Origin: Actinopolymorpha cephalotaxi
GTDB taxonomy: Bacteria > Actinomycetota > Actinomycetes > Propionibacteriales > Actinopolymorphaceae
Assembly (NCBI RefSeq): GCF_013408535.1
Contig: NZ_JACBZA010000001.1
Span: 6,656,850 to 6,720,849 of the forward strand
Direction of reading: 5' to 3'
Length of the DNA: 64,000 bases
The notes under the pieces were generated by a model. It did not search any database, had not been told where the DNA came from, and was given only the letters and a program-made list of their open reading frames with translations. The position numbers were made by a program, and so were the translations under genes. Position 1 is the first letter of the stretch; each line of letters starts with the position of its first letter. Positions 45,972 to 50,018 of this stretch are shown piece after piece.

Positions 45972-47378
45972 ATGGACCTCCGCCCACTGATCGGGGCGCG
46001 GCGCATCCGCCGCGGCCATCCGTCGACGCGGGGCGACCTCGCCTCGGTGATCGCGCTCGACCCGGCGGCCGCGGCCCGTACGGCCAGGCCGACGCTGCGG
46101 GTCGCGCACTTCACCGACACCTACCTCCCGCGCCGGGACGGCGTGGTGACCTCGCTGCAGTCCCTCACCGCCGCGATGTCCGAGCTCGGCCACTCGAGCC
46201 TGCTGGTGGTGCCGCGGCACCCCGACCAGCCCGCCGACGAGGAACTGCTGCGGCTGCGGTCGCTGCCGTGCGGTGTGGCGCAGTTCCGGCTGGCCGCCTG
46301 GCCGCGCAGCCGGCACGTGGAGCGGGTCGCGCACTGGCTCCCGCACGTGGTGCACGTGCACACGCCCGGACCGGTCGGCCTGCTGGGCATCTTCGCCGCG
46401 CGCCGGCTCGGGTTGCCGCTGGTGCAGACGTACCACACCGATCTTCGGGCGTACGCCGACGCGTACCGCCTGCCGACCTCGGTGATCGAGGGGGTGCTGC
46501 GCTGCTACGCCCGCCGGCTGGGCTCCCCCAAGCTGGCGCTGCCGCACGGCGGCAACCGCACCGCGCGCCGGGACGCCCTGGTCGACGCGGGCACCGGCCT
46601 GCTGCTGGCCGACGCCGACGCCGTTCTCGTACCGACCTCCGCGATCCTCACCCGCTGCAAGCTGCCGATCGACGACGACCGGATCTACGTCGCACCCACG
46701 GGTGTCTCCCTGCAGGACGTCCCGGCCGGCGCGGGCCCTGACTTTCGCCGGCGGTACGGCATCGGGCCGGACGACCCGGTCGTGCTGTTCGTCGGGCGGG
46801 TCAACCGCGAGAAGGGCATCGACCTGCTGACCGAGGCGTTCGGCCGGCTGCGCGGCCTGGTCCCCGCGGCCCGGCTGGTGCTGGTCGGCGCGGTCTACGA
46901 CTCCCGCTGGGTGCAGCGGCTGCTGGAGCAGGCCGGCATCGCCGACCGTGTGGTGCTCACCGGCCAGCTGCCGCCACCGGAGGTGGCCGCCGCGTATGCC
47001 GCGAGCGACGTGTTCGCGTTCCCCTCCCTGACCGACACGCAGGGGCTGGTGATCCAGGAGGCCGCGCTGGCCGGGCTGCCGGCGGTGCTCGCCGACGAGG
47101 CGCTTTACTCCAGCGGCCCGCTGGCGGGCGCCGGTGTGCTCGCCGGCCCGGACCCGATGCGGTACGCCGAGGCGCTGGAGGACCTCCTGACCAGTCCGGT
47201 GCGCCGGGCGCACGTGGGCGAGGAGGCGCGCCGCCGGGCCAGGCGGAACCCGCCGTCGGAGTACGCCCAGCGGATGGCGGCGATCTACGGCCAGGCGGTT
47301 CGCCGGGCGGGCTCGGCGACCCGGCTGTCGCGGGGCGAGCGGCGCGGCCCGTTCCGGTCGCGCCGGCTGATCGCCTGA
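45972..47378 (+). CDS. GT4-family mannosyltransferase-like glycosyltransferase
   Basis: A 468-residue glycosyltransferase with GT-B fold. The N-domain reads LRVAHFTDTYLPRRDGVVTS near residue 37, then VVHVHTPGPVGLLGIFAARR and VQTYHTDLRAYADAYRLP. The C-domain has VLFVGRVNREKGIDLL, LTGQLPPPEVAAAYAASDVF and FPSLTDTQGLVIQEAAL, the E-x7-E nucleotide-sugar motif. These resemble GDP-mannose-dependent alpha-mannosyltransferases acting on lipids such as phosphatidylinositol. ATG 45972 is chosen for AAGGAG 7 nt upstream; an in-frame ATG at 45921 has no RBS. The acceptor is unknown. Confidence 0.88.
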   Translation: MDLRPLIGARRIRRGHPSTRGDLASVIALDPAAAARTARPTLRVAHFTDTYLPRRDGVVTSLQSLTAAMSELGHSSLLVVPRHPDQPADEELLRLRSLPCGVAQFRLAAWPRSRHVERVAHWLPHVVHVHTPGPVGLLGIFAARRLGLPLVQTYHTDLRAYADAYRLPTSVIEGVLRCYARRLGSPKLALPHGGNRTARRDALVDAGTGLLLADADAVLVPTSAILTRCKLPIDDDRIYVAPTGVSLQDVPAGAGPDFRRRYGIGPDDPVVLFVGRVNREKGIDLLTEAFGRLRGLVPAARLVLVGAVYDSRWVQRLLEQAGIADRVVLTGQLPPPEVAAAYAASDVFAFPSLTDTQGLVIQEAALAGLPAVLADEALYSSGPLAGAGVLAGPDPMRYAEALEDLLTSPVRRAHVGEEARRRARRNPPSEYAQRMAAIYGQAVRRAGSATRLSRGERRGPFRSRRLIA

Positions 47379-47495
47379 CGCCGCCGGGCCCGTCCCGCGA
47401 CGGGTCCGCGCCACGCCGAGGGACGTCTCACTAATTGACCGGCATTCCCATCATGTGAGACGACCGTGACAGGGTCGGGCCGGGTCCGTACGCTG

Positions 47496-47582
47496 ATGCT
47501 CGTGCTGCGGAGGACCCTGCTGACCAAGCGCCGTGCGGTGGACAACTGCCGCACCTCGACCTGTTTGTGTCCGGCCTCCTGA
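47496..47582 (+). CDS. Cysteine-rich leader peptide upstream of the sulfurtransferase operon
   Basis: A 26-28-residue open frame ending LTKRRAVDNCRTSTCLCPAS, with three cysteines in its last 11 residues. Short peptides with this LTKRRAVD...C pattern precede sulfurtransferase genes in actinomycetes, and Cys-rich leader ORFs are known to attenuate sulfur genes in response to cysteine. Starts are possible at ATG 47496 or GTG 47502; TACGCT (47489-47494) lies 7 nt before the GTG, which favours a leaderless leader from 47502. The stop at 47580-47582 is 175 nt before the sulfurtransferase start. Ribosome stalling at Cys codons could control downstream expression. Confidence 0.75.
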   Translation: MLVLRRTLLTKRRAVDNCRTSTCLCPAS

Positions 47583-47757
47583 ACGACGGCCGTCCGCTCC
47601 TCCGTCGCCCGCGCTCCGCGCCGACCACGCACCAGAGGGTTTGGACCTCACGCCGTCCGTAGCGCCCCTGAACGATCCGGGGCCGCCACGCCCCCGAATG
47701 CTCGCCCGCCGCGCTCTGCGGCAAATGCCCCACAACCGCTCCCATGGAGGTTTCCGC

Positions 47758-48609
47758 ATGAGCCGTGACTCCGTCCTCGTCTCCGCCGAATGGGTGGACG
47801 AGCATCTGGACGACCCCAACATCGTTCTGGTCGAGGTCGACGAGGACACCAGCGCCTACGACAAGGGCCACATCAAGGGGGCCATCAAGCTGGACTGGCG
47901 TGAGGACCTGCAGGACAAGGTCCGGCGCGACTTCGTGGACAAGCAGCAGTTCGAGAAGCTGCTGTCGTCCCGCGGCGTCGGCAACGACCAGACCGTGATC
48001 CTCTACGGCGGCAACAACAACTGGTTCGCGGCCTACGCCTACTGGTACTTCCGCCTCTACGGCCACCAGGACGTCAAGCTGCTCGACGGTGGCCGCAAGA
48101 AGTGGGAGCTGGACAGCCGCGGGCTGGTGGAGGACGTGCCCTCGTACGCCCCCACGAAGTACGTCGCCTCCGACCCCGACCTGTCCATCCGCGCGTTCCG
48201 CGACGAGGTCGTGGACGCCATCGGCCAGCTCAACCTGGTCGACGTCCGCTCGCCCGACGAGTACTCCGGCAAGCTCCTCGCCCCGGCGCACCTTCCGCAG
48301 GAGGTCGCCCAGCGGGCCGGCCACGTGCCCACCGCGGTCAACGTGCCGTGGAGCAAGGCGGCCAACGAGGACGGCACCTTCAAGTCCGACGACGACCTGC
48401 GCGAGATCTACGGCAAGGCCGGCGTCGACTTCGGCAAGGACACCATCGCCTACTGCCGGATCGGCGAGCGCAGCTCGCACACGTGGTTCGTGCTGCACGA
48501 GCTTCTGGAGCAGCCGAACGTCAAGAACTACGACGGGAGCTGGACCGAGTACGGCTCCCTCGTGGGTGTTCCCGTTTCCCTCGGTGACCAGCCTGGAGAT
48601 GCCTCATGA
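47758..48609 (+). CDS. Thiosulfate/3-mercaptopyruvate sulfurtransferase (rhodanese)
   Basis: A two-domain rhodanese, 283 aa, cytosolic, transferring sulfur from thiosulfate or a similar donor to an acceptor thiol. The N-terminal inactive domain shows LVEVDEDTSAYDKGHIKGAI. The catalytic domain shows LVDVRSPDEYSGK and the persulfide loop YCRIGERSSHTWF, with the active cysteine near residue 232. CRIGERS is the loop of actinobacterial CysA/SseA-type sulfurtransferases. ATG with GGAGG 7 nt upstream. The DUF1416 gene overlaps its stop by 4 bp. A Cys leader peptide lies upstream. Confidence 0.93.
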   Translation: MSRDSVLVSAEWVDEHLDDPNIVLVEVDEDTSAYDKGHIKGAIKLDWREDLQDKVRRDFVDKQQFEKLLSSRGVGNDQTVILYGGNNNWFAAYAYWYFRLYGHQDVKLLDGGRKKWELDSRGLVEDVPSYAPTKYVASDPDLSIRAFRDEVVDAIGQLNLVDVRSPDEYSGKLLAPAHLPQEVAQRAGHVPTAVNVPWSKAANEDGTFKSDDDLREIYGKAGVDFGKDTIAYCRIGERSSHTWFVLHELLEQPNVKNYDGSWTEYGSLVGVPVSLGDQPGDAS

Positions 48610-48926
48610 GTGCCAACGACAGCTGCGGCGCGCCCACCGGCGGCGCCGCTCTGGCCGGGGTCAACCTGGCCAAGGAAGCAGTGATCCAGGGCGTCGTCCG
48701 CGCGGACGCCACCCCGGTGTCGGGCGCCTACGTGCGCCTGCTGGACGGGTCCGGTGAGTTCACCGCCGAGGTCCCGACCGACGCGGACGGCGTGTTCCGC
48801 TTCTTCGCCGGCCCGGGCACCTGGACGGTGCGGGCGCTCGCGCCCCGCGGTGCCACGGCGGAGGGTTCGGTGCAGGCCGAGCTCGGCAAGATCGCCGAGG
48901 TAGAGCTGGCGCTCACCCCGGCCTGA
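48606..48926 (+). CDS. DUF1416 protein partnered with the sulfurtransferase
   Basis: A 106-residue protein of the DUF1416 family, which almost always follows this type of sulfurtransferase. CGAPTGGAALAGVNLAKEAV at the N-terminus has a single conserved cysteine (C6); the rest is a transthyretin-like beta-sandwich (IQGVVRADATPVSGAYVRLL and VFRFFAGPGTWTVRALAP). Coupled by an ATGA overlap. It may accept or deliver sulfur with its partner; the role is not established. Confidence 0.9.
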   Translation: MSANDSCGAPTGGAALAGVNLAKEAVIQGVVRADATPVSGAYVRLLDGSGEFTAEVPTDADGVFRFFAGPGTWTVRALAPRGATAEGSVQAELGKIAEVELALTPA

Positions 48927-48979
48927 GCCGTACGGCGGCACCGCCGAACAGAACGAAAGCAGTACAGAACGCAGTACGC

Positions 48980-49052
48980 CACACGCCTCGCGGGGCGTCC
49001 CTTCCCGGTGGGTTCGCCCACCCGGGTTCCGGGACGCCCCGCGTCGCGTGTG
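48980..49052. terminator. Multi-tier bidirectional terminator
   Basis: CACACGC (48980-48986) pairs with GCGTGTG (49046-49052). Inside, CGCGGGGCGTCCC (48989-49001) pairs perfectly with GGGACGCCCCGCG (49031-49043). Inside that, a CCCGGTGGG/CCCACCCGGG stem closes on TTCG. It lies between the converging DUF1416 and epimerase genes and is among the strongest structures in the window. Confidence 0.9.
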
Positions 49053-49058
49053 AAGAGA

Positions 49059-50018
49059 TCAGACCAGCTCGGGGTGGGCCCGGAACCACTCGATGGTCCT
49101 GCGCAGGCCGTCCTCGACCGCGATCTTCGGCTCCCAGCCGAGGATGTCGCGGGCGCGGGAGATGTCCGGCTGGCGTACGCGGGGATCGTCCTGCGGCCGG
49201 GGGACGAACGCGAGCTCGGAGGCCGACCCGGTGAGGTCGCGGATCCACCGGGCGAGGTCGAGCACGGACAGTTCGTGCGGGTTGCCCAGGTTGACCGGAC
49301 CCGGGTGATCGGCGTGGGCCATCGCGAGGATGCCCTCCACCGTGTCGTCGACGTAGCAGATCGAGCGGGTCTGGGAGCCGTCCCCGGCGATGGTGAGCGG
49401 CTGCCCCTTCAGCGCCTGGCGGACGAACGTCGGGATGGCCCGGCCGTCGCCGGGCCGCAGCCGGGGCCCGAAGGTGTTGAACAGGCGTACGACCGCGGCG
49501 TCCAGCCCGTGGGTGGAGCGGTAGGCCATGGTGAGCGCCTCGGCGAACCGCTTCGCCTCGTCGTAGACCCCGCGCGGCCCGACGGGGTTGACGTTCCCCC
49601 AGTACTCCTCGTCCTGCGGGTGGACCAGCGGGTCGCCGTACACCTCGGAGGTGGAGGCGAGGACGAAACGCGCGCCCTTGTCCCTGGCCAGCCCGAGCGC
49701 GTGCAGCGTGCCGATCGAGCCGACCTTCAGCGTCTGGATCGGGAGCTGGAGGTAGTCGATCGGTGAGGCGGGGGAGGCGAAGTGCAGCACCAGGTCGACC
49801 GGGCCGCCGACGTGGATGTAGTCGGTGACGTCGCACCGCAGGAGCCGGAACGCCTGGTGGGGAAGGAGATGTGCGACGTTCTCCGGCCGTCCGGTGAGGA
49901 AGTTGTCCAGGCAGACGACGTCGTAGCCGTCGGCCAGCAGCCGTTCGCACAGGTGGCTGCCGAGGAATCCGGCACCGCCGGTGACCACGGCCCTGCGCTT
50001 CGTACCGGGATGTCCCAC
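49059..50018 (-). CDS. UDP-glucuronate decarboxylase-like NAD-dependent epimerase
   Basis: Extended SDR, 319 aa. [18 protein letters not shown] binds [23 protein letters not shown] followed by [20 protein letters not shown] holds the YxxxK pair. The EVYGDP...EYWGNVNP sequence is characteristic of UXS enzymes, which make UDP-xylose from UDP-glucuronate. [20 protein letters not shown] closes the sugar pocket. The start is GTG 50018, because GAGGGGG lies 6 nt upstream; a GTG at 50033 lies inside or before that RBS. It supplies sugar nucleotide for the adjacent polysaccharide genes. Confidence 0.88.

Follow-up and report, generated by a model that had tools for sequence, protein, structure and literature searches.

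A probable cysteine-sensing leader peptide upstream of the sulfurtransferase–DUF1416 operon of Actinopolymorpha cephalotaxi

In the genome of Actinopolymorpha cephalotaxi, a short leader open reading frame (ORF) at positions 47502–47582 lies upstream of an operon encoding a rhodanese-type sulfurtransferase and a DUF1416 protein, and it is very probably a cysteine-sensing attenuator of that operon, belonging to the Ms5788A/cis_reg_atten family. It adds one more member to the cysteine-responsive leaderless attenuators known from mycobacteria and does not represent a new kind of element. Positions refer to the window, that is, the whole 64,000-nucleotide stretch that was analysed (positions 6,656,850–6,720,849 of the 6.86-Mb single-contig genome), except where genome coordinates are stated; all features of the window described below are on the forward strand. 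Two computed properties are likely to be of general interest, namely a rule that the last core cysteine codon is UGU and a C-rich spacer behind the leader.

The leader ORF and the operon behind it

The leader comprises 26 codons plus a stop, running from GTG (47502) to TGA (47580–47582), and its translation is VLRRTLLTKRRAVDNCRTSTCLCPAS. A −10 promoter element, TACGCT (47489–47494), is separated from the GTG by a 7-nt spacer, which constitutes a leaderless architecture, and the same layout, TANNNT followed 6–8 nt on by an in-frame ATG or GTG, was observed for 85 of the 86 leaders of relatives. From this conserved promoter-to-start spacing we infer a leaderless start at GTG 47502. An earlier interpretation made from the letters of this DNA (the sequence-only reading) had allowed either 26 or 28 codons. 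The longer frame, beginning at ATG 47496, was rejected, because this ATG is only 1 nt past the −10 element, as against exactly 7 nt for the GTG, and because its equivalent is absent in the more distant relatives L013, L014 and L016, which retain the GTG. The shorter frame stands, and the reading frame, the three Cys codons, the stop, the TACGCT element and the Shine-Dalgarno (SD) sequence and start of the sulfurtransferase gene were all found where that reading had placed them. The Cys codons are a TGC at 47547–47549 (the first core Cys; TGC in 83/86 relatives), a TGT at 47562–47564 (Cys in 37/86 relatives, at a position that varies among them) and a TGT at 47568–47570, which is the last core Cys and the proposed control codon.

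The sulfurtransferase (CysA2/SseA-like, 283 aa, 47758–48609; PF00581, E = 3e-34) begins at ATG 47758, 175 nt downstream of the leader and behind an SD sequence, GGAGG, read from the sequence at 47746–47750. Its gene shares an ATGA overlap with that of a DUF1416 (SseC-like) protein of 106 aa (48606–48926; PF07210, E = 6.3e-37), and a DUF1416 gene directly followed the sulfurtransferase gene in 79 of 79 loci. Identity of the sulfurtransferase was 74–91% across 80 named actinomycete loci, the closest named match being that of Actinopolymorpha pittospori (91%), and 83–99% in a further seven genomes belonging to the organism's own family. This arrangement of leader and sulfurtransferase is that of the cysA2 case in M. 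smegmatis and M. tuberculosis, and in M. smegmatis a conserved leaderless ORF before cysA2 showed occupancy in ribosome profiling (Shell 2015; PMC4633059). In many actinomycetes a DUF4395 gene (PF14340) is inserted between the leader and the sulfurtransferase gene (L062, L082, L086, L108, L129, L130, L133 and others); none was found at this place in the lineage of the window. The sulfurtransferase frame is open upstream through the leader as far as GTG 47533, so that automatic gene finding may set the start of the protein 75 codons too far upstream; homology begins at ATG 47758.

Family membership and the last cysteine codon

The leader matched the NCBIfam model NF042933 (Ms5788A family Cys-rich leader peptide) with an E-value of 6.5e-9 and 35.3 bits, short of the strict cut-off of 45 bits, which was passed by only 28 of 198 genomes of the class, with some match in 155. 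The match to NF042934 (cis_reg_atten, the general model for putative leader peptides of actinomycetes) scored 29.4 bits, above the curated cut-off of 27, and 28.1 bits in a genome-wide search, still over it. As with NF042933 members, the leader is sited upstream of a cysA2-type sulfurtransferase operon. In M. smegmatis, the Ms5788A leader before cysA2 (Msmeg_5788) is a leaderless short ORF and shares with the present, presumably leaderless, ORF an LTKRRAVDxCR core, Cys codons at its end and a sulfurtransferase operon downstream; the inspected mycobacterial versions end in long Cys runs, whereas the present leader has CRTSTCLCPAS, with three spaced Cys. The RRHVD-type leaders of NF042934 share with it the distance between Asp and the last Cys, the UGU codon and the C-rich region after the leader, but here Ala replaces His in the core and there is a second conserved Cys. 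The mycobacterial cysteine-sensing attenuator is thereby extended to a family spread across actinomycetes. Of 246 phylum genomes sampled, those with the exact RRAVD pattern all belonged to the class, and no Rfam family was found in 47000–49100.

Conservation was assessed at 88 sulfurtransferase loci (8 from the same taxonomic family, this one included, and 80 named), comprising 86 aligned leaders and two degenerate ones; the loci were chosen by protein sequence, so that no codon bias was introduced. A leader was present upstream of the sulfurtransferase gene at all 88, counting the two degenerate cases. The residues LTKRRAVD were nearly invariant while their synonymous codons varied, a pattern that points to a translated frame under selection. 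Conservation of the Cys codons, which the sequence-only reading had named as a check on itself, was borne out: the last core Cys is retained at 88/88 loci and the first at 86/88. In the degenerate leaders (L088 and L092) the first core Cys is replaced by Gly (DFG and DYG), and the last Cys is still TGT. That reading had also described the leader as Cys-rich; the three Cys are there, but the weight it gave to their number tells only part of the story, as many members have one or two. The constraint falls on a single UGU codon together with the non-Cys core.

The last core Cys, nine codons past the invariant Asp, is encoded by TGT in 88 of 88 loci (86 aligned and two degenerate), which, like the other sequences counted here, are related and so not independent, and which span many families. 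A DNA pattern ending in TGT was found in 124 of 297 genomes of the class, and the identical pattern ending in TGC in none of the 297. Among RRHVD-type leaders, searched with either codon permitted, TGT occupied this position in 73 of 74 distinct sequences. The sole exception found was an RRHVD-type match ending in TGC (G394, C169:11108–11149), a candidate leader. In mycobacterial poly-Cys leaders neighbouring Cys codons mix TGC and TGT, but all those inspected have TGT at the last core Cys, as do all four leaders of the present genome. The remaining Cys codons of RRAVD leaders were 172 TGC against 15 TGT (>85% UGC), those of the window's genes 115 against 17, and those of the sulfurtransferases adjoining leaders 82 against 2. 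Pairing of the third base was rejected as the cause of the invariance, since no consistent partner was found in 38 folded leaders, in which a U to C change at the codon gave a mean change in folding energy of −0.5 kcal/mol. By eye the Asp codon, GAY, could pair with GUC; this too was set aside, as the adjacent pair lacks clear covariation and the pairing is weak in mycobacterial leaders.

Our preferred reading is that UGU is the control codon and that its wobble reading raises sensitivity to scarce Cys-tRNA. We advance tentatively, at rather less than an even chance, the broader proposal that Ms5788A and RRHVD leaders are all read at one fixed UGU, with the core and hairpin positioning the ribosome or RNA polymerase and the output passing through Rho by way of the C-rich spacer. 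Under this proposal UGU would always be used because tRNA-Cys (GCA) reads it by wobble, the slower codon setting sensitivity, and the sensor would be codon-specific, not a count of Cys residues. A vague model of stalling at poly-Cys would then give way to a precise prediction: were sensing a property of the codon, changing the last UGU to UGC alone should shift regulation. No discussion of the UGU invariance was found in the literature searched, outside which Canestrari 2020 lay, and an essentially invariant last UGU across actinomycetes is apparently new, as we have not seen it reported.

RNA features and the proposed mode of regulation

Modelled on the experimentally studied mycobacterial relatives, from which both the stalling and the direction of regulation are carried over, the leader would act as follows. 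When Cys-tRNA is scarce, the ribosome would stall close to the leader's end, UGU 47568–47570 most likely occupying its A site, and the genes behind the leader would be expressed; when cysteine is ample, the ribosome would finish the leader and leave, and expression would fall. The final step could be Rho-dependent termination in the C-rich spacer, prevented by the stalled ribosome, or alternatively sequestration of the SD sequence. Cysteine-responsive attenuation had been proposed in the sequence-only reading, and it draws support from the conservation of the Cys codons, the spacing seen in 85 of 86 relatives and the precedent of the cysA2 leader, the function being argued by analogy. Passages of PMC13236596 and PMC9094748 credit the experimental evidence for cysteine-responsive attenuation by such leaders to Canestrari et al. 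2020 (doi 10.1111/mmi.14498).

The untranslated spacer behind the leader (47583–47743) is a candidate Rho-loading region, being C-rich and G-poor (77 C, 43 G). Its C>G skew of 0.283 ranks in the top 0.4% of equal-length segments of the window, both strands considered. Among relatives, C exceeded G in the first ~140 nt past the leader in 86 of 86 loci, and the skew averaged 0.16 there and 0.02 ahead of the promoter (paired Wilcoxon test, p about 1e-13, the loci not being independent); the skew after RRHVD leaders was positive in 28/28 (mean 0.19), and in controls taken upstream of other genes it was 0.01 (87 regions) and, within the window, 0.06 (26 regions). No intrinsic terminator, that is, a hairpin with a U-run, was found between leader and gene in the window, nor any T-run of 5 within 200 nt after the leader in the 86 loci, and these absences do not fit a classical transcription attenuator with an intrinsic terminator. 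A C-rich, G-poor composition is that of Rho-loading sites, and such a spacer without intrinsic terminators suggests Rho-dependent attenuation. The E. coli tna operon, in which TnaC governs Rho-dependent attenuation, possibly shares this layout, and C-rich, G-poor untranslated RNA does follow the leader stop here; TnaC senses free tryptophan, and the likeness is one of layout. Judged by general footprint size, a ribosome stalled with its A site on UGU would extend no further than about the stop codon, which counts against protection of a downstream Rho site by the stalled ribosome.

Leaders with runs of Cys were predicted in 2005 as candidates upstream of cys operons, and Rho was suggested for them because terminators were missing (PMC1262725). 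Those leaders resemble the present one in having Cys codons near the stop and no intrinsic terminator; their authors reported no conserved Rho motif (PMC1262725), whereas a consistent C>G skew was observed here in 86 loci. The C-rich spacer bears on how terminator-less leaders act, a question that dates from that year.

Within the leader, a 9-bp hairpin is predicted at 47533–47554, where 47533–47541 pairs with 47546–47554 at a probability of 0.95–1.0. In 135 distinct RRAVD cores, codons 3–11 folded with a mean of −11.8 kcal/mol, compared with −7.8 to −8.3 for pooled synonymous codons. None of 100 nulls was as stable in the L-type, N/H, F, Actinopolymorphaceae and mycobacterial groups; in Streptomyces 6/100 were, and the effect is not clear there, so that five of six clade groups favour the hairpin. 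Column-preserving shuffles also folded more weakly (0/200 as stable), in a test that clade structure inflates. With the possible exception of Streptomyces, synonymous codon choice conserves a hairpin in the RNA of the RRAVDxCR core. RRHVD-type leaders gave little hairpin signal, and they differ from the present leader in being largely without this structure.

It is conceivable, if on balance doubtful, that the output is translational only, the tail of the leader pairing with the SD of the sulfurtransferase gene until a stalled ribosome releases it. GGCCTCC at the leader end is complementary to the GGAGG of the SD, and for M. smegmatis Ms5788A Canestrari 2020 reportedly found that stalled ribosomes block structures hiding the downstream RBS. 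At 22 representative loci, native pairs of tail and first-gene SD bound slightly better than permuted pairs in the best of six windows, but with p = 0.06 before correction for those six. Folding predictions for the window gave no sign that stalling frees the ribosome site of the sulfurtransferase gene: predicted SD accessibility was 0.16–0.21 with the leader blocked at any Cys codon, against 0.20 when free, and the 289-nt leader RNA folded no better than shuffles (z = 0.48). Translation attenuation is the term applied to this leader class in a passage of PMC13236596.

We regard it as unlikely that RRAVDxCR is a nascent-chain arrest motif, with the peptide in the tunnel sensitising the ribosome at UGU, so that one Cys codon suffices and the number of Cys is secondary. 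Such a motif would agree with the near-invariance of the non-Cys residues of LTKRRAVD over variable codons, and with the RRHVD-type leaders, most of which have one core Cys, nine codons past Asp. The encoded hairpin can explain part of the core conservation, an objection that is weakened by the RRHVD leaders, which keep most core residues despite little hairpin signal. Scarcely any credence is due to a chance short ORF whose conservation is merely that of promoter or untranslated sequence. High-GC DNA is rich in short frames, and nine ORFs of at least 20 aa overlap 47400–47800, but residues that are conserved over varying synonymous codons in many genera, the HMM match and the presence at 88/88 loci stand against it, and the conservation already refutes it.

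Further leaders in the genome

Beside the leader of the sulfurtransferase operon, the genome holds three further leaders, and the four together look like one cysteine-sensing set. On the reverse strand, the leader L201 (MWAALLLTQRREIDLMHVASATCR, genome positions 300003–300059) lies before the gene for an SsuA-like binding protein, and its call rests on motif and context, its score being below the family cut-off. The operon encodes this binding protein, a permease, an NtaA/DmoA-type monooxygenase and a flavin-reductase-like protein, and by their sequences these genes would form an organosulfur (sulfonate) uptake operon. L202 (VSRVLLLTIRRAVDLMRVASGLCR, genome positions 2783737–2783793) precedes a 672-aa FAD/NAD(P)-binding-like protein, so named from its sequence, for which no NCBIfam match was found. 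L200 (MTGRYFWRRLHVDLRRQASCACRYCPAL, genome positions 4325845–4325895, reverse strand) lies before a symporter of the DctA/GltP family, which, given its Cys leader, may be a transporter of cystine or another sulfur compound.
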